Below are positions 31,043 to 39,353 of a DNA stretch of 64,000 nt, one piece after another. How positions within the stretch are numbered: the first letter of the stretch is position 1; every line of letters begins with the position of its first letter. A model generated the notes under the pieces. The model searched no databases. It was given only the letters and a program-made list of their open reading frames with translations, and was not told where the DNA came from. The translations under genes were made by a program, and so were the position numbers. Source of the stretch: Candidatus Rifleibacteriota bacterium (GTDB taxonomy: Bacteria > Muiribacteriota > Ozemobacteria > Ozemobacterales > Ozemobacteraceae); NCBI GenBank assembly GCA_012517355.1, contig JAAYVD010000123.1, positions 62,001 through 126,000 on the forward strand, written 5' to 3'.

Positions 31043-33580
31043 TCAGGGGTGCTTCAGGTCGGACAGCCGGAGGATGACACAGGTGCAGTCATCCTGGAGC
31101 GGCTCCCCCTCGAGGAAGGCTTCCACCGCCGCCGCGAGACCATCGACCATCAGCTGGACGGGCTCCTGCCACCGGCGCTGGATCTCGGCGATGACCCTGG
31201 GCAGGCCGAACATCTGGCCGTCCGCCCGACGCGCTTCGGTCACCCCGTCCGACAGGAACACCAGCAGATCGCCCGGCACGTAGGGGCAGGTGATCCCCTG
31301 GAAATACGGCCGCTGCCCGATGCCCAGGGCCGGGTTCCCCGAGGCCAGCGAGATCACCTCCCCGGTTTCCCCCTTGAGCAGCAGGACGGGGGGGTGCCCG
31401 CAGTTCACGACGAACAGCAGGCGGGCCTGCATGTCGAGCCGCGCGAAGACCAGGGTGACGAAGCTGGTGAGGGTTCCGAGATGCGCGGCGATCTCGGTGT
31501 GGACGAAACCCAGGATGGTTTCGGGGTGCGGCGGGGAGCCGTGCCGGACGGTGGCCAGCCGGCTGCGGGCGCGCAGGAAGGCCAGCCGGGTGGCAGCGGC
31601 GATCAGGGCGGCGGGGATCCCCTTGCCCATCACGTCGCCGACCAGCACGTCGAGCAGGTGGTCGTTGTCGGGGAAGAAGTCGACGAGATCGCCGTCGACG
31701 TGCATGGATGGCCGCGACAACACCGCCACTTCCGCCCCGGGGCGGGGTCCGGGCGGGCGGCCCACCAGCAGTTCCCGGTGGATCTCCCCGGCGATCAGGA
31801 TCTCCCGCTCGTGGGCTTCGCGCACCGCCCGCTCCGCCATCCGGGCGGCGGTGACGTCGCGGAACTCCCACAGGTGGCCGAGACTTTCCCCATCGACCTC
31901 GAGCGGAATGCGGTCCCGCTCCATGATGCGGCCGTCGTCCAGCCGGAATTCGCCGGTTCCCGTGGTGGTGGCGGTCTCGGTGAACAGGGCCCGCCAGGCT
32001 TCCGGCAGCGCGTTCGCGGGGGGCGGGGCCGGTTCCATGGGGATGAGGGGCGGCGCGGGTGCCGCGAACGGGAGGTGCACCAGTCGCTCGTCGGTGGGGA
32101 ACATCTCCCGGAAACGCTGGTTGAGGAACTGGATGACGTGCTGGCCATCCTCGACCAGGATGCCCGAAGACAGGTGTTCGATCAGGGTGATCAGCAGGTG
32201 GGTGGCGTGGCGCAGGTTCTCCTCGGTCTTCTTGCGCGCGGTGATGCGCTGGAAGACGGCCATGCCCCCGATGATCTCCTCGTTCCCGCCACGCACCGGC
32301 AGCAGGTGGACCTCGTAGAAGTCCTGGCGGAAGGGGATCTCGACCAGGTGGGTCTCCCCTTGGAGGGCGGCTCGGAGATAGGGGACGAGCCGGTCGAAGA
32401 CCGGCTGGGGAAGGGCATCCATCACCAGGCAGGGATCGGCAGGCTGGGTGTTTCCCCGGTCGGCTTCCCCCGCCAGTTGCCGCAGTCCGGATGGCAGGCC
32501 CATCCGTTCGAGATCCCGGCCATCGGCGAGGACGACCTTCATCCGCCGGTTGTACAGCAATACCAGCCCGTCGGGGAAATTGCGGGCCAGGGTCCGGTAC
32601 CGGGCCGATGACCGGTCGGCAGCCTCCAGGGCCTCCCAACGGATGAACGCGAGGGCGAACAGTTCGGCGGTCAGGCGCAGCAGGCGCAGGTCTTCCGTGG
32701 TCCAGTGCTTTTCCATGCGGAAGGAATCGAACCCGATGGTCCCCAGCAACCGGCCGTTCGCCATCAAGGGGAGGACGGCCTTGGACTTCAGGCCGGTCGC
32801 CTCCCAGAGCCGGCGCTCGGCCTCCCCTTCCCGGGGAATGGTGGTGAGCGAGGGGATCAGCAGAGGTTCGCCGCGGCGGTAGGCTTCCATGGACCACGGG
32901 AACCCGGCCAGGTGGAGGCCCGTGCTGCCGGAGCGCCGGGGCGGGGTGGCGGACCCCGACCAGCGGAAGGTGCGGGCGATCGCGGTTCCGTCATCCGAGA
33001 ACAGGTGGATGTTCGCCTGATCGACCCCGGCACCGGTGCCGAGTTCGCCGAGGGCATTGAGGATGCGGGTGTCGAACGACCCGGGCCCGGCCTTCATCAA
33101 TTCCGAGGAGATGGCGCAGACCACCCGTTCCATTTCGAGGCGGTGGTGGAGGTGGTTGTCTGGATCGGTCGTGGGGGTGGGGGCCGGGGGCGGGGAAGTG
33201 AGGACGAGCCCGAACAGGGGATCACCGGAAGTGGGCCAGCGGACCAGATGCCCCGGGAAAAAACGGGTGGGCTCGCCCAGAGGCCGGATGGACAGGAGGA
33301 CGGAAGCCTCGGAAGGGGAGATGCCGCCGGCGGTCGTGGGGGTACCCTGGCTGGAGGGTGACTGGTTGGGGAGCAGGTCGTCCAGCACCGTCCCCACCAG
33401 GGCTTCCGGGGTCCGTCCAAAGAGCGAGGCGAACGCGGGATTGGCCTGTCGGACGGTGTGGCCCCTTGTCAGGAGGGCGACGGGCTGGGTGAGTCGGTCC
33501 AGGAACCCCCGCAGATCCACGGAGGGATCCATGGTTTCAACCGGCGTCAGACTCCCTCTCCGTTGCAGACCTCGGGACAT
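31043..33580 (-). CDS. PAS/GAF sensor PP2C-type serine phosphatase
   Basis: An 845-residue soluble sensor phosphatase. An N-terminal PAS (FLDRLTQPVALLTRGHTVRQ) is followed by a GAF domain near 150-320 (GVDQANIHLFSDDG, LLGTIGFDSF). Two further PAS-like modules follow, the second at about 455-590 (HLLITLIEHLSSGILVEDGQ). The SpoIIE-type phosphatase is at 620-845 (HVDGDLVDFFPDNDHLLDVL, VGDVMGKGIPAALIAA, FLSDGVTEARR, DDCTCVIL). The metal-binding Asp residues are present. ATG 33580 is preceded by AGGAGG. It is a relative of the phosphatase at 12354; no anti-sigma partner is adjacent. Confidence 0.88.
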   Translation of the reverse strand: MSRGLQRRGSLTPVETMDPSVDLRGFLDRLTQPVALLTRGHTVRQANPAFASLFGRTPEALVGTVLDDLLPNQSPSSQGTPTTAGGISPSEASVLLSIRPLGEPTRFFPGHLVRWPTSGDPLFGLVLTSPPPAPTPTTDPDNHLHHRLEMERVVCAISSELMKAGPGSFDTRILNALGELGTGAGVDQANIHLFSDDGTAIARTFRWSGSATPPRRSGSTGLHLAGFPWSMEAYRRGEPLLIPSLTTIPREGEAERRLWEATGLKSKAVLPLMANGRLLGTIGFDSFRMEKHWTTEDLRLLRLTAELFALAFIRWEALEAADRSSARYRTLARNFPDGLVLLYNRRMKVVLADGRDLERMGLPSGLRQLAGEADRGNTQPADPCLVMDALPQPVFDRLVPYLRAALQGETHLVEIPFRQDFYEVHLLPVRGGNEEIIGGMAVFQRITARKKTEENLRHATHLLITLIEHLSSGILVEDGQHVIQFLNQRFREMFPTDERLVHLPFAAPAPPLIPMEPAPPPANALPEAWRALFTETATTTGTGEFRLDDGRIMERDRIPLEVDGESLGHLWEFRDVTAARMAERAVREAHEREILIAGEIHRELLVGRPPGPRPGAEVAVLSRPSMHVDGDLVDFFPDNDHLLDVLVGDVMGKGIPAALIAAATRLAFLRARSRLATVRHGSPPHPETILGFVHTEIAAHLGTLTSFVTLVFARLDMQARLLFVVNCGHPPVLLLKGETGEVISLASGNPALGIGQRPYFQGITCPYVPGDLLVFLSDGVTEARRADGQMFGLPRVIAEIQRRWQEPVQLMVDGLAAAVEAFLEGEPLQDDCTCVILRLSDLKHP

Positions 33581-33915
33581 GCGGCGCCTCCTGCGGTTCA
33601 GCGCAAGCAGTGTGCCGGGTACATTTCGCCCGAGGGGGAAAGATGTGCCCTCAAGGCCGGGAAAAATTCCCGAAAATGAGGAAAATATCCCTTGGAACGG
33701 GTGATTGGTTGCTTCCGCCGCCGGCAGGGCACCGATCTCCGGTTCTGCTGCCGGCCTGGGCCAGCCGCCGCATCAGGAATGGCTGGCCTGAAGCCAGGAA
33801 TGGAGAGGGCCGGCCCGGATTCCTGAGCCGTCTTGCGGGATCCGGACCCCGGACGTGGGAACAAGTCACGGCGGCCGGCTGAACAGGCCAGGTGGGGGCC
33901 GATCCGGTGAAGGTC
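33581..33915. other. intergenic region, probable promoter zone
   Basis: 335 bases between two minus-strand genes. It holds the small hairpin CGGGAA-AAA-TTCCCG (33658-33672) and a sigma-54-like sequence (33603-33617). Nothing else is supported. Confidence 0.6.
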
Positions 33916-34740
33916 TCAGGCCCTTTCCCGGGGCGGAAGGGACGGTGCGGCGGCCGGCTCGGTCGTTTCTGCGGCGGGTTCGTTCGTCCCCGGCGTGGCC
34001 CCGGCGGGGAAGAGATCCTCCAGGAGGGTGATCGAATCCAGTTCGGCCACCGCCTCCCGCAGGTCGCCGCCGGCTTCCGGTTGCTCCGAAAGCCGCTGTC
34101 GCAGCAGGTTGAGCCGCGAGGCAACCCGGATCTGCGCCGTGGTGAACTGCTCGAGGCCGCCCCGCTTGGCCCGGAGGCGGGCGCTGGTGGCGGCCAGTTC
34201 CCGCATCAGGTCACGGAACTCCTGGCGTTCGCTCTCGTGGTCGGCCTTGTCGAGCTGGTCTCCCAGTTCGCCAAGGCGGGTCTCGACGCGGGGAAGCTCC
34301 TCGTCGAGCAGTCCCTGGACGGACTCGACCCGGTCCCGCTCGGCGAACAGCTTCAGGCGGACTTTTTCCAACTGGCTGAGGTAGGTCTGCAGGCCCCGTC
34401 GCCGCAGGAGGTTCCGCAGGGGCTCGAACTCCTCGCGGACCTTCTCGAGCATCCGCCACTGGCGACGTTCGGCGTAGCTCCGCACCATCCAGAACAGGAC
34501 GATCAGGAGGGTGGCTCCCAGCGGGATGGCCGCCCAGGCCGACAAACCGGCCAGGCCTCCGATGAGCCCCATCACGACAGCCTGGAAAGCGCCGAAGAAC
34601 CACTCGATGAGCCCGGTGAGAAAGGAGAGGGCGATCTTGGAAAGGGCGAGCAGCAGCACCAGGCCCAGCATCAGGCAGCCGAACAGCCAGATGGAGCAGA
34701 CCAGGCAGGGGGAGGACGGCAGACGCATGGCAACCTTCAT
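33916..34740 (-). CDS. membrane-anchored coiled-coil protein, function unknown
   Basis: A 274-residue protein with two N-terminal membrane segments (IWLFGCLMLGLVLLLALS and AIPLGATLLIVLFWMV, with a further hydrophobic stretch between them). From about residue 95 the chain is highly charged and helical (QLEKVRLKLFAERDRVESVQ, RVETRLGELGDQLDKADHES), a probable cytosolic coiled coil. The tail is Ala/Pro/Glu-rich. ATG 34740 is listed; an internal ATG at 34728 has a better ribosome site (GAAGG). It lies downstream of the 39-residue peptide gene and may share its attenuator-controlled transcript. Confidence 0.68.
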   Translation of the reverse strand: MKVAMRLPSSPCLVCSIWLFGCLMLGLVLLLALSKIALSFLTGLIEWFFGAFQAVVMGLIGGLAGLSAWAAIPLGATLLIVLFWMVRSYAERRQWRMLEKVREEFEPLRNLLRRRGLQTYLSQLEKVRLKLFAERDRVESVQGLLDEELPRVETRLGELGDQLDKADHESERQEFRDLMRELAATSARLRAKRGGLEQFTTAQIRVASRLNLLRQRLSEQPEAGGDLREAVAELDSITLLEDLFPAGATPGTNEPAAETTEPAAAPSLPPRERA

Positions 34741-34951
34741 CGCTCACCGGATTCGCGGTCCATGGGGAAAGACCCCGATGGCGACATGATAGCATGGTCG
34801 GGGGTCAGGGGTTTCTCCTGATGCCCTCTGGCTCAGCCCGGGGGATATTCCTGGCGGCTCACCCCATCGACCCGACGGGCGAAGGGCCCCCTTTGTCGCC
34901 ACGGAGGCCCTGTCGACGCCGGGGTCGGTCGGGGCAGCGGTGGTCGCCGCG

Positions 34952-35071
34952 CTACCAGCCCAGGGCGACCTTCAGGATGACGAGGGCGGCGAGGGCCACG
35001 GCGACGAAGATGCCCTTGGTCTTCAGTTCGGCCATTTCATCATGGGAGGAAGGGCGGGTGGGTTGATCCAT
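34952..35071 (-). CDS. 39-residue single-pass membrane peptide
   Basis: A small protein of 39 residues with a polar N-terminus (MDQPTRPSSHDEMAELKTK) and one C-terminal membrane helix (GIFVAVALAALVILKVALGW). GGAG lies nine bases before the ATG. It is too short for most gene callers. Support comes from the hydrophobic pattern, the ribosome site and a 157-base leader with a promoter and terminator/antiterminator structure upstream. The function is unknown; small tail-anchored peptides like this often modulate a larger membrane protein. Confidence 0.55.
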   Translation of the reverse strand: MDQPTRPSSHDEMAELKTKGIFVAVALAALVILKVALGW

Positions 35072-35143
35072 GGGTTTTCTCCACTTCTGAACCGGCACGC
35101 GGGAGCGCGCCAGTGTCCGCCGCCAGACGGGCTTTCCCGGAAC

Positions 35144-35180
35144 AAAAAAACCGCCATCTGTCGGCCTCGACAGATGGCGG
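35144..35180 (-). terminator. intrinsic terminator within a leader
   Basis: On the minus strand a perfect 13-bp stem, CCGCCATCTGTCG / CGACAGATGGCGG with loop AGGC, is followed by seven T. It lies about 73 bases upstream of the 39-residue peptide start and about 50 bases into the transcript from the promoter at 35235. Confidence 0.85.
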
Positions 35181-35263
35181 CCCGACCATCTGAGAAAACC
35201 TTCGGAACCCACGTTCCGAACCCTTGACTCTTTCATTATACCATGTTTTCCCAGCGAGCCCAA
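35144..35263 (-). promoter_or_regulatory. attenuator-type leader or small RNA gene
   Basis: A minus-strand promoter TTGGGC (35258-35263), 17-base spacer, TATAAT (35235-35240) drives a leader of about 85 bases. The leader holds a perfect hairpin TTCGGAAC-GTGG-GTTCCGAA (35201-35220) and then three segments: CAGATGG, CCATCTG and CAGATGG. The middle one can pair with the first (antiterminator, 35171-35192 region) or with the third, inside the terminator stem. It may be a riboswitch-like attenuator for the downstream peptide gene, or a free-standing small RNA. I do not recognise it as a known class. Confidence 0.6.
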
Positions 35264-35330
35264 TAGGAGAGACGCCATTTTGGATTTCCCTTGCGCCTTG
35301 AGAGACAACGCCCATCATCGTGTTTTTCCC

Positions 35331-35620
35331 CCGCTTCTCCCCTTCCCCTTTCTCTGCCCTGGTCGCTTTCTCCCCTCCAGATCCATGCTCGCCGATCGTT
35401 GCAGCAACCCCGATCGCCCTTTCTCCCGCTTCTCCCCTTCTCCTTTTCTCTGCCCTGGTCGTTTTCTCCCCGCCAGATCCATGCTCGCCGATCGTTGCAG
35501 CAACCCCGATCGCCCTTTCTCCCGCTTCTCCCCTTCCCCTTTCTCTGCCCTGGTCGCTTTCTCCCGTCCAGATCCATCCTCGCCGATCGTTGCAGCAACC
35601 CCGATCGTCTTTTCCCTGCC
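35331..35620 (+). repeat. 95-96 bp minisatellite, three copies
   Basis: The unit begins CCGCTTCTCCCCTTC and contains CAGATCCATGCTCGCCGATC followed by GTTGCAGCAAC. Copies start near 35331, 35426 and 35522. The plus strand is strongly pyrimidine-rich, with an embedded palindrome CGATCGTTGCAGCAACCCCG. Confidence 0.85.
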
Positions 35621-35748
35621 TTTCTCCCCTTCCCCTTCCCCCCTTCCCCTTCCCCGACCGGTGATTCCACTGCCGGTCGCCTTTCCTTGCCGCAAAGGAA
35701 ACGGGGAAACCCTTTCGGGCTTCCCCGCGTGTGGTTGGCGGTGGCCGG

Positions 35749-35772
35749 TCGCGGCCGGAAGGCCGCTCCTAC
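35749..35772 (+). repeat. REP-like palindrome
   Basis: TCGCGGCCGGAAGGCCGCTC followed by CTAC is nearly identical to REP sequences dispersed in pseudomonads and other Proteobacteria. It ends two bases before the aclA stop codon. Confidence 0.55.
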
Positions 35773-35773
35773 G

Positions 35774-37618
35774 TCATTTCACCTGTGGGGGGAGATCGTA
35801 CAGGACGTCGTCCCAGGGGTGGCGGTAGAGCGGCGCCTTCATGCGGGTCTGATCCATGTAGTGGCCGATCATGCCGATCGTGCGGCCGAGCAGGAACAGG
35901 CCGTTCAGACCGCCGCTGTCGACCACGCTCTGGATGCGCTCCTCGTCCCAGCCGAGGCCGTACATCATGTCGACCGACAGCACGCCGATGGCCCCATCGA
36001 CGTTCAGGATCAGGGTGTCCTTCTTGGCGGTGGTGAGTTTCTCGACCTCGAGGGCGTAGTCGAGCAGAGGGGTTTTCGGGAACTGGTCGTTGGCGAACCT
36101 CTTGAGCAGCACGACGCGCATGTCGGGGTTCTTCAGGCTCTTGATCAGGTGCCCGATGCCCTGGATCTTCTGGTTCTTCTTCTTCATCGACTCGACGAAC
36201 TCGGCCGGGCTCAGCTTGGCATCGTAGGCCGCCTTGAACGACAGGGCCGCGCCCGCCACGGCGCCCCCGAAGCGGGGGCCGATGGTCAGGATGCCCGACG
36301 CCACCGCGCTCATCAGGTCGCGGCCGGCGCGGGCGGTGACGATGGTGTTGTGAGCGCCCGAGACGCACGGGCCGTGGTCGGCCGACAGCTTCACGACGAT
36401 CTCCATGAAGCTGGCCGCCCACTTGGGCAGTCGTTCCTTGAACCACAGCAGCCCGATCACCTCGCCGACCGAGTAGTTCTCGGAGATGACCTTGCTGATC
36501 TTGTGGCCGGCGTAGATCAGTTCGTCGCCGGAATCGTCGGAGATGGTGCAGGTGAAGTTGGTGGGCCGGCGCACCAGGTTGCGGGCGGCCGCTTCCTTGT
36601 AGTTCATCGGGATGGCCGGGGCATCGGCGTCGGGAATGGGCTTGTGCAGGCCGTCGGCGACGAGCTTGTCGAAGGTGTGCTTGATGGCCTGGCCGAAGTC
36701 GTCGAACGACTGCGGTACCACCACGCCGACCTCGCGCAGGGCCTGGTTCTTGGCCTCGGCCGTCTCGCGGCTGGCGTCCGCCTTGGCGCCGGCGTGGCCG
36801 AACTGGATGCCCTTGGGCATGTGCTTGATCGAGGTGCCGGTGACCCACATGACCAGCGGCTTCTTGATCTTCCCTTGCTTGACCGCGTCGACGATGCGCC
36901 ACTCCTCCTCGCCGCCGACCTCACCGAGGCAGACCAGCATCTTGATGGCGGGGTTGGCTTCGTAGCGCAACAGGTGCTCGAGCAGGTTGGAGCCGGGGTA
37001 GGCGTCGCCGCCGATGGCGATGCCCTCGAACAGGCCGTCGCTGTTGCGGGAGATGATGTTGTAAGCCTCGTTCGACATGCCGCCGGACTTGCTGACGAAC
37101 CCGACCGAGCCGAGCCGGTGCAGCTTGCTGGTGACGATGTTGTCGATGGTGCCGCCGGTGTTGCCGATCTTGAAGGCGCCGGCCGCGATGCCGCCGACGG
37201 TGGCGGGGCCGATGATGACCTTGTTCTTACGCAGGGCGACCGCCCGCATGTGGCGCGAGAACCGCTCGGGGATGCCCTCGGCGATGACGACGACGGTGCG
37301 CAGCTGGTCCTGGTCCAGGGCCTGCATGGTGGTGTCGTAGGCCGACCGGAAGGAGGCGAAGTTGATCATGACGTCGGCCTCGGGATGCTTGGCGCAGGCC
37401 GCCGCGAGGTCGGGATACACCGGGACGAAGACCTCCTTCTTCCCGTAGAAGCACTTGAACAGGTCGGTGCGGCCGGGATCGACGATGGCGGCGACCGAGG
37501 GTTTCTCGCGTTTGCAGCAGTAGTCGAAATCGAGCATGCGCTGGACGGCGTTGGTCTGCATGCCGAAGATGATGGACCGGGTGTCGCGGTCGAACAGCAG
37601 ATAATCGGGGCGTTTCAT
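35774..37618 (-). CDS. aclA: ATP-citrate lyase, large (citryl-CoA lyase-containing) subunit
   Basis: With AclB it cleaves citrate with ATP and CoA to oxaloacetate and acetyl-CoA. The 614 residues align with the C-terminal half of animal ACLY. SIIFGMQTNAVQRMLDFDYC is the start of the CoA-ligase part, FGHAGAKADA carries the phospho-His, and the citrate-synthase-like part holds ADHGPCVSGAHNTIV, TIGPRFGGAVAGAAL and YRHPWDDVLYDLP. ATG 37618 follows AGGAAG after the aclB stop. It is a marker enzyme of the reductive TCA cycle, but can also supply cytosolic acetyl-CoA. Confidence 0.95.
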   Translation of the reverse strand: MKRPDYLLFDRDTRSIIFGMQTNAVQRMLDFDYCCKREKPSVAAIVDPGRTDLFKCFYGKKEVFVPVYPDLAAACAKHPEADVMINFASFRSAYDTTMQALDQDQLRTVVVIAEGIPERFSRHMRAVALRKNKVIIGPATVGGIAAGAFKIGNTGGTIDNIVTSKLHRLGSVGFVSKSGGMSNEAYNIISRNSDGLFEGIAIGGDAYPGSNLLEHLLRYEANPAIKMLVCLGEVGGEEEWRIVDAVKQGKIKKPLVMWVTGTSIKHMPKGIQFGHAGAKADASRETAEAKNQALREVGVVVPQSFDDFGQAIKHTFDKLVADGLHKPIPDADAPAIPMNYKEAAARNLVRRPTNFTCTISDDSGDELIYAGHKISKVISENYSVGEVIGLLWFKERLPKWAASFMEIVVKLSADHGPCVSGAHNTIVTARAGRDLMSAVASGILTIGPRFGGAVAGAALSFKAAYDAKLSPAEFVESMKKKNQKIQGIGHLIKSLKNPDMRVVLLKRFANDQFPKTPLLDYALEVEKLTTAKKDTLILNVDGAIGVLSVDMMYGLGWDEERIQSVVDSGGLNGLFLLGRTIGMIGHYMDQTRMKAPLYRHPWDDVLYDLPPQVK

Positions 37619-37646
37619 CTCGTCGTTCTTCCTTTCCGTGGCGGCC

Positions 37647-38918
37647 TCAGGCCTGCAACGCATCTTTCACGATGCGGGTCATGTGGTATTCGGGACCGTG
37701 GACCTCGATGGGCAGGCCGAGGTCCTCGGCGGCCTTGCGGATGTTGGCCAGGCCCTCATGGAAGTTGGGCCCGCCGCGCCGCACGTAGATCTTCGCGTTG
37801 ACCTTCTTCAGCTTGCCGGCGAACTCCTTCATGGCCATGATGATGCCGGTGAAGGTCTTGGCCACGTCGGTGAAGTTGGCGATGCCGCCGCCGATGATCA
37901 GGGCTTTGCCCTTGCCCTCGGGGTGCGGCTTGCGGGTCATCAGGTCCATGACCACCTTGGCGTATTCGTAGGTCAGCTGGGTACTGGGGTCGCCCGAATA
38001 CTCCCCGTAGAAGGCCAACTCACGGGCGTAGCCAAGGTCGCAGACGGTGTCGGCGAAGATGACCGAGGCGCCGCCGCCGGCCACCATGTTCCAGATGCGG
38101 CCGTCGGGGTTGAGGAGGGTCAGTTTCAGCGAGGCGCCCGACATCGCGTCGAGTTCGCGCACCTTCTGCTCCTCGGGGGTCAGCTCGCGGCCGAAGGCGG
38201 CGGGGAACTCGATGTCCTCGCCCCAGTATTTGCCGGCGCAGAACTCGGCGGTGTCGTCGAGCTTGGCGACGAGGTCGAGGGGAACGATCTTCCCGTCGGC
38301 GATGGCGAAGGGGTTGATCTCGAGGTAGGCGAAGTGCAGGGCGGCGAACAGCCGGTAGAGGCCGGTCACGAACTTCGCCACGGTCTTGCGGTTCTTGCCG
38401 AGGTCTTTCGGCAGGGCCTTTTCGATGTCGACGCCGGCGATGCCGTCGATGACCGGCACGTGGATGGAGACCACCTTCTCCCAGTTCTCCTCGACATTGA
38501 TGCCGCCCTCGAGCGAGAAGTAGATGGTGTCACCTTCGGCTCCCGACTTGATGGCGACGTAATACTCGGTGTCATGGGCCACACAGGGCTCGATCAGGAA
38601 GTGGGTGAGCGTGCCGGTGATCTCGCCGACCTTGGTCTCCTTGCCCATCCGTTCCTTGATCCACTTCTTCGTCTCCTCGAAATCCTTCTTGACGAGGACG
38701 AGGCCGTGCTTGCCGCGCTTGCCGAAGAGCTGGTCGGGCTTGGCCACCAGGGGTTCCTTGCCCAGCCAGGGGTTCTCTTCCTTCAGTTTCGCCCAGTCGG
38801 TATGCCGGTCGACCAGCACGATCTTGCCGTCATACCCGGACTCGCCGCCCAGGAACTCCGGCAGGTGCCGGGCCAGCATCTTCTTGCCGTGATATTCGCG
38901 AATGCCACGTTGTGCCAT
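37647..38918 (-). CDS. aclB: ATP-citrate lyase, small (ATP-grasp) subunit
   Basis: A 423-residue partner of AclA, matching the N-terminal half of animal ACLY. The ATP-grasp part includes VAKPDQLFGKRGKHGLVLV and LIEPCVAHDTEYYVAI; the CoA-ligase part includes SGASLKLTLLNPDGRIWNM, VAGGGASVIFADTVCDLG and FVRRGGPNF-type sequence (YVRRGGPNFHEGLANIRKAA). ATG 38918 has AGGAG eight bases upstream; the frame is open upstream without homology. It is the first gene of the acl operon, with a strong promoter about 45 bases ahead. Confidence 0.95.
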   Translation of the reverse strand: MAQRGIREYHGKKMLARHLPEFLGGESGYDGKIVLVDRHTDWAKLKEENPWLGKEPLVAKPDQLFGKRGKHGLVLVKKDFEETKKWIKERMGKETKVGEITGTLTHFLIEPCVAHDTEYYVAIKSGAEGDTIYFSLEGGINVEENWEKVVSIHVPVIDGIAGVDIEKALPKDLGKNRKTVAKFVTGLYRLFAALHFAYLEINPFAIADGKIVPLDLVAKLDDTAEFCAGKYWGEDIEFPAAFGRELTPEEQKVRELDAMSGASLKLTLLNPDGRIWNMVAGGGASVIFADTVCDLGYARELAFYGEYSGDPSTQLTYEYAKVVMDLMTRKPHPEGKGKALIIGGGIANFTDVAKTFTGIIMAMKEFAGKLKKVNAKIYVRRGGPNFHEGLANIRKAAEDLGLPIEVHGPEYHMTRIVKDALQA

Positions 38919-38960
38919 CTTCGATCTCCTGTTCCGAGTGATGTACCGCTGTGTCACGCT

Positions 38961-38990
38961 TGTATAGCGCGTTCCGGCGGTTCCTGTCAA
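38961..38990 (-). promoter_or_regulatory. sigma-70-type promoter of the aclBA operon
   Basis: On the minus strand a perfect TTGACA (38985-38990), 18-base spacer and TATACA (38961-38966). Transcription would start near 38954, giving a leader of about 36 bases to the aclB ATG. Confidence 0.75.
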
Positions 38991-39353
38991 GGTCGGGGAG
39001 GGGTCACGGATCCGGGAGGAGAACCGACGGGTGGGCCCTGGAATGGCTTCCCCGCCACCCGGCGAACGCCGTCGGGGGACGGCCCCTTGGCGAGGCGCTC
39101 GAACCGTGTCCATCAGCGTCCCTTCGCGGTCTGACCCGCTTGGGCCAATTCCTGGCAGGCCGCCAGAGGGGAACGCACTGGATCGCCGGAATGAGGTGGC
39201 GGAAGGGGCAGCCATTCTCACCATGGTATCTGGAGCGGTTTTCCGGTCGGGTTCTGTCTCCCTTCCTGATGGGGACAGGGGCTGCCGGAATCGCCTTCCA
39301 GCAGGAAAGGTATGGATCGCTGCGTGGGAATTGCTGCGGAAGTGGCCATGGGC

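Follow-up and report, generated by a model that had tools for sequence, protein, structure and literature searches.

The 64,000-nt stretch of DNA analysed here (the window; Candidatus Rifleibacteriota, contig JAAYVD010000123.1, positions 62,001 to 126,000) carries on its minus strand a promoter, a hairpin, three short segments of which the middle one can pair either way, and a terminator, followed by a gene for a 39-residue membrane peptide. Such an arrangement raises the question of whether the RNA is a riboswitch or a free small RNA and, if it is a riboswitch, which ion or metabolite it senses and which gene it controls. Inspection of the sequence recovered every element of the original prediction where it had been placed: a first hairpin (TTCGGAAC/GTTCCGAA, 35220-35201), the segments CAGATGG, CCATCTG and CAGATGG between 35191 and 35154, a run of seven T residues (T7) at 35150-35144, and a 39-codon ORF with its ATG at 35071, 157 nt from the predicted transcription start at 35228. 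The features are as follows.

35235-35263, minus strand: promoter, TTGGGC-17-TATAAT with extended -10 TGGTATAAT; TATAAT at 35240-35235, predicted start at about 35228.
35172-35223, minus strand: aptamer of the nhaA-I (Li+-I/Na+-II) type, from Rfam RF03057 and covariation over 57 relatives.
35201-35220, minus strand: P1 hairpin of 8 bp, from model match, folding and covariation.
35171-35191, minus strand: P2 hairpin, CAGATGG/CCATCTG with loop TCGGGCCG, from model match, folding and covariation.
35144-35183, minus strand: intrinsic terminator, GGGCCGCCATCTGTCG/CGACAGATGGCGG... plus T7, whose 5' arm doubles as the 3' strand of P2.
34952-35071, minus strand: gene for a 39-aa single-pass membrane protein, MDQPTRPSSHDEMAELKTKGIFVAVALAALVILKVALGW, with a GGAG ribosome-binding site about 9 nt upstream.
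33916-34740, minus strand: next gene, 274 aa, two hydrophobic segments followed by a coiled coil, 211 nt beyond the microprotein ORF.

Judged by its sequence, the promoter is best classed with the extended -10 type, and it has a weak -35 hexamer. The latter agrees with the consensus at three of six positions, and a sigma-70 consensus scan of 33000-37500 did not call the promoter. In most relatives, a -10-like hexamer lies 9-12 nt 5' of the aptamer. The region upstream of the promoter (35325-35637) is a tandem array of a 96-nt unit (3.3 copies, 92% matches), of which fragments of 30-55 nt and one 250-nt match (66% identity) recur at about 20 places elsewhere in the genome. Immediately upstream of the riboswitch, the minus strand also encodes a two-subunit ATP-citrate lyase (35774-39224; citrate-binding/ATP-grasp and CoA-ligase/citrate-synthase-like subunits).

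A search of the whole window against Rfam 15 returned exactly one match, to nhaA-I (RF03057), with 53.9 bits against a gathering cutoff of 37, an E-value of 7.6e-8 and coverage of model positions 1-55 of 55. This covariance-model search had been proposed as a check in the original prediction, and its result lies well above the curated cutoff. A candidate atpB RNA on the plus strand reached 15 bits where the cutoff is 37.4, and was rejected as a chance hit. The window RNA shares with nhaA-I the leading GGGU, P1, the AGG junction and a P2 with invariant GGUCGGGCCGCC, and it is a member of the nhaA-I family. The family has been validated experimentally as Li+-I, while its variants with an intrinsic terminator sense Na+ and are termed Na+-II, according to PMC9646797. 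The suggestion of an unclassified riboswitch was thus correct in calling the RNA a riboswitch and mistaken in calling it unclassified.

The two hairpins covary across phyla, where their lack of covariation would have spoken against the proposed structure. In an alignment of 57 aptamers, the covariation score was 0.491, compared with 0.247 +/- 0.013 for shuffled alignments (0 of 500 as good) and at most 0.199 for slid controls, and paired cells made up 90.8% against 79.0% after shuffling. Nine of the 13 aptamer pairs have changed on both sides, as have five of the six pairs tested in P1, which is the 8-bp hairpin noted originally. The aptamer core is invariant across the relatives, as is UCGGGCCG in the P2 loop.

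The middle of the three segments can indeed pair either way: CAGATGG and CCATCTG form P2, and the second pairing forms the intrinsic terminator. With 16 paired positions, this terminator is the strongest within 33000-37500, in keeping with its initial description as excellent. The 85-nt RNA folds with -40.6 kcal/mol (z = -4.6, not equalled by any of 200 shuffles), and when the 3' arm of the terminator is left out, P1 and P2 form as two hairpins at -22.6 kcal/mol. Both pairings are specific to their own loci: over 111 aptamers with a T-run, P2 pairing scored 5.97 against at most 5.85 in 300 between-locus swaps, and terminator pairing 5.99 against at most 5.66, likewise in 300 swaps. P2 acts as antiterminator. 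The terminator is not used by every relative, since no T-run follows the aptamers at L008 and L009, and L005 has a weak terminator.

Computation shows that the RNA belongs to the family, that it can pair in two ways, and that it and the order of genes are conserved; the direction of switching is argued from the known class. Since P2 and the terminator exclude each other, and since in the published class the ligand stabilises the aptamer and blocks termination, the ligand should turn transcription ON. RNA polymerase would start at about 35228 and make P1 and P2 first. When the ion is scarce, CCATCTG, the 3' strand of P2, would be taken by the next CAGATGG into the 16-bp terminator, and transcription would stop after about 85 nt. 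When the ion is abundant, it would clamp P1 and the P2 loop, P2 would retain its 3' strand, and in the absence of a terminator transcription would run on through the gene for the 39-aa single-pass membrane protein. The RNA of about 85 nt is then probably the prematurely terminated product. We are confident, if short of certain, that the gene for the 39-aa membrane protein is controlled by an nhaA-I riboswitch that turns transcription ON.

Within the phylum (Candidatus Riflebacteria), the aptamer is present in 8 of 40 genomes. The genome of the window has a second copy (52.1 bits), located before a gene for trehalose-6-phosphate synthase (GT20, E 6.6e-139). No T-run follows this copy (L003), which may have an interrupted expression platform or one of a different kind. 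The approximately 240 nt between it and the trehalose synthase gene (L003 1552-1792) contain several GC-rich inverted repeats. The association with nhaA that characterises Li+-I is not found at the window locus, where the downstream gene is the microprotein gene. Indeed, a profile search for NhaA (PF06965) detected none in the genome of the window or in any of the 24 Ozemobacteraceae genomes; the four of 40 phylum genomes that encode NhaA all lie outside this family.

We scanned 84,980 genomes with a pattern comprising the aptamer followed by T5, and found at least 117 matching stretches. The pattern required U in the P2 loop, and the scan therefore says nothing on C-type members in other phyla. 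Among the matches listed, 109 have the P1 stem and the AG junction. They come from Omnitrophota, Elusimicrobia, Deltaproteobacteria/Syntrophaceae, Phycisphaerae, Spirochaetaceae, Nitrospirae, Methylomirabilota, Margulisbacteria, Obscuribacterium, Colwellbacteria, Bdellovibrionales and Verrucomicrobiales. In all, more than 100 aptamers with a downstream T-run were found, in at least ten phyla. All 16 scan genomes tested with the Rfam model passed the RF03057 cutoff. A sample of the alphaproteobacterial class, taken for comparison with classical Li+-I RNAs, gave a match in 2 of 142 genomes, which is too few to compare. Tandem nhaA-I aptamers occur in Desulfobacterota and Syntrophaceae (L062 4684-4921, also L163, L166 and L169), at least some of them with their own terminators (L062). 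The basal pair of P1 is U-A or C-G in the window group, as opposed to G-C in the Rfam consensus and the alpha- and beta-proteobacterial loci seen. As a marker of ion specificity this pair found no support: it tracks lineage, being G-C in alpha- and beta-proteobacteria and U-A, C-G or U-G elsewhere, including before nhaA in Desulfosudis.

The genes near these aptamers are a salt and osmotic-stress set. Within 1.2 kb of 108 related aptamers, we found trehalose synthase 16 times (background 2.6%), an NhaD/ArsB-like protein 11 times (0.1%), MscS nine times (1.5%), an HflK-like protein nine times (background 0) and DUF1646 five times (0.1%), and NhaA only four times (L065, L078, L095, L114; background 0). 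Small membrane proteins are also frequent: among 103 aptamers with enough downstream sequence, 26 have a first ORF that does not exceed 75 aa, has a Shine-Dalgarno sequence and encodes a hydrophobic segment. At randomly chosen positions of these loci, the same ORF caller gave 2.6%. The Riflebacteria microprotein accounts for three of the 26; overall, the small ORFs belong to several unrelated families. Many of them directly precede a gene for an Na+/H+ exchanger, an Na+/Ca2+ exchanger, a DUF1646 permease, an RnfA/NqrE-type subunit, a cation ATPase, a TRAP subunit or an MscS-like protein. The Riflebacteria microprotein gave no significant profile match to the small ORFs of other phyla, and we therefore treat them as separate families.

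Three further observations concern this gene set. A second riboswitch-linked microprotein family, of about 44 aa and with the motif N-F-[SA]-Q-[ED]-W (L031, L051, L076, L080, L089, possibly L085), is common to Elusimicrobia and Obscuribacterium, and perhaps Omnitrophota. In Elusimicrobia and Omnitrophota, trehalose-phosphate synthase domains apparently fused to an N-terminal membrane sensor-like region are found 3' of terminator-type aptamers (L016, L034, L049, L064 and similar). Lastly, an HflK/stomatin-like gene repeatedly lies about 105 nt after the aptamer start in Omnitrophota (L013, L019, L035, L073, L087, L109, L118, L123); the accessible portions of PMC9646797 and PMC9337991 contain no link between the switch and membrane-protein quality control.

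From the sequence evidence, Na+ is the probable ligand of the window RNA, though by no means a secure one; Li+ is considerably less likely, and a broad or other specificity less likely again. The salt and osmotic gene set favours Na+, with trehalose synthase, NhaD/ArsB-like, MscS and DUF1646 genes enriched near related aptamers. Also in favour of Na+, Ozemobacteraceae genomes have no nhaA, and trehalose-phosphate synthase follows the second copy and, in L006, the microprotein gene. The same RNA could instead be a Li+ sensor, Li+-I proper, detecting toxic Li+, with the microprotein aiding Li+ export or tolerance; we regard this as possible but unlikely. In its favour, the Rfam family is the Li+-I class, the P2 loop (TCGGGCC) has the U of Li+-I RNAs, and a few terminator-type relatives, the four named above, do precede nhaA. 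Against it stand the absence of NhaA from the genome and the family, a regulon of trehalose synthase, MscS, DUF1646, Na+/Ca2+ exchanger and Rnf that points to salt and osmotic stress, and the suggestion, in PMC9646797, that trehalose-linked members may sense Na+.

According to PMC9646797, the Na+-selective RNA of Desulfobulbus propionicus has C54 where U is usual in Li+-I, and a C54U change broadened its response to Li+, Na+ and NH4+; this RNA, a terminator-type member, was Na+-activated in vitro. The window RNA, like all nine Riflebacteria aptamers, has U at a position that, going by the numbering, probably corresponds to U/C54 in the published constructs. As the usual Li+-I base in that account, this U would argue against Na+. 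We found C at the first variable P2-loop position in some Desulfobacterota only (L161, L174, L177, L180; again by our numbering). In L177, counting from the first G of GGGU puts this C at nucleotide 51, a place that would agree with position 54 of a 71-nt construct.

According to PMC9646797, most nhaA-I members lie upstream of nhaA and presumably act at the ribosome-binding site, and terminator-type members were reported only from Deltaproteobacteria (RefSeq 80); the window RNA differs from the former in its transcription terminator, its microprotein target and a genome without nhaA. It resembles Na+-II of D. propionicus in having an intrinsic terminator that overlaps P2 and is mutually exclusive with it, and in preceding genes of unknown function, and differs from the described Na+-II in its U at the presumed position (C54 in the published RNA) and in belonging to Riflebacteria rather than Deltaproteobacteria. 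The two-hairpin architecture and terminator control recall Na+-I (the DUF1646 motif; PMC9337991), and the gene set overlaps the Na+-I regulon given in that paper (KefB, DUF1646, osmotic stress); the conserved features of P1 and the P2 loop differ, however, going by the papers' descriptions. Membership of the DUF1646/Na+-I class was rejected, as no match to the DUF1646 model was found in the window at E up to 1.

As to the target, a homologous ORF of 37-46 aa directly follows the aptamer in all eight Riflebacteria genomes that have it, which bears out the placement of the leader before a membrane peptide gene. The encoded proteins share a hydrophilic N-terminus, K-x-K, one hydrophobic segment, a K and a C-terminal end resembling FGW, LGW or FGF, with seven invariant columns in an alignment from the eight genomes. 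The pattern of change fits a protein: 27 of the 28 pairs have a pN lower than pS, and only the pair of the window and L007 does not (0.25 versus 0.23). No match was found in Pfam or NCBIfam. A profile of the microprotein matched 19-20 of 24 Ozemobacteraceae genomes, depending on the threshold, and 20 of 40 phylum genomes at E up to 0.1; the latter tally includes a weak match in one genome outside the family (G037), and a few matches are weak (E between 1e-4 and 0.1). In 12 Ozemobacteraceae genomes with a profile match there is no match to RF03057, and eight of these loci, when examined, showed no Rfam match. The protein thus does not depend on the switch, and the switch appears to have been gained or lost before an older gene. 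Where the switch-less loci could be read, the next gene resembles, by its sequence, a xanthine-dehydrogenase subunit.

It is improbable that the switch really serves the 274-aa gene, with the 39-codon ORF being spurious or a leader peptide. The two genes share a strand, are separated by 211 nt and may be co-transcribed, and the 274-aa gene comes next in L007 as well. The 39-aa protein, however, is conserved across genera with differing next genes and exists without the switch: as the following gene, L006 has trehalose synthase, L009 a binding-protein-like gene, and L010 and L011 tmRNA. Being next in L007 and not in L009, the 274-aa gene is not a constant part of the unit, and its product gave only sub-threshold matches in Pfam. 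Leader-peptide attenuation was rejected, as the 39-aa ORF lies 3' of the terminator, is conserved as a protein and has no regulatory codon run. Finally, the original alternative of a free small regulatory RNA of about 85 bases with incidental read-through, to which the strong promoter-to-terminator unit of that length lends itself, is very improbable and not needed, because the aptamer match is full-length with an invariant core, P1 and P2 covary, the same small ORF follows in Riflebacteria, and both aptamer and ORF stay while terminators diverge (L005, L006, L010); a species of this size is expected anyway as the terminated product.

Returning to the 39-aa protein as the target, we think that this small protein probably assists or regulates a cation transporter, or some membrane complex, in the inner membrane under salt stress, by analogy with the small ORFs of other phyla that adjoin transporters under the same switch. 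KdpF, MetS and similar proteins are small accessory proteins of transporters, with 30-50 residues and one short transmembrane segment. The microprotein resembles them in its length and its single short transmembrane segment, and the small ORFs of other phyla do so in lying directly before transporter genes. It differs in having no Pfam or NCBIfam match and in that no transporter or partner gene adjoins its gene in the window.

The microprotein family as a target and the breadth of the terminator-type sub-group appear to be new, and the pairing of trehalose synthesis with a microprotein in a bacterial family that lacks NhaA is new. Terminator-type nhaA-I switches are thus widespread and extend beyond Deltaproteobacteria. 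We think it a serious possibility, if somewhat short of an even one, that the U-loop terminator-type nhaA-I RNAs form a large, mainly Na+-sensing group over at least ten phyla, with a salt and osmotic regulon that includes transmembrane microproteins, the 39-aa protein of Ozemobacteraceae being one new family among them. Because about 100 natural U-type members are found mostly ahead of trehalose synthase, MscS, Na+/cation transporter and small membrane protein genes, and not of nhaA, a clean test of how this RNA fold chooses between Na+ and Li+ is now possible. It is hard to assign roles to small membrane proteins, and control by a riboswitch is among the few clues that a genome offers; here it gives a probable function, in the response to salt ions, to a microprotein family that is unnamed in the databases searched (Pfam, NCBIfam).
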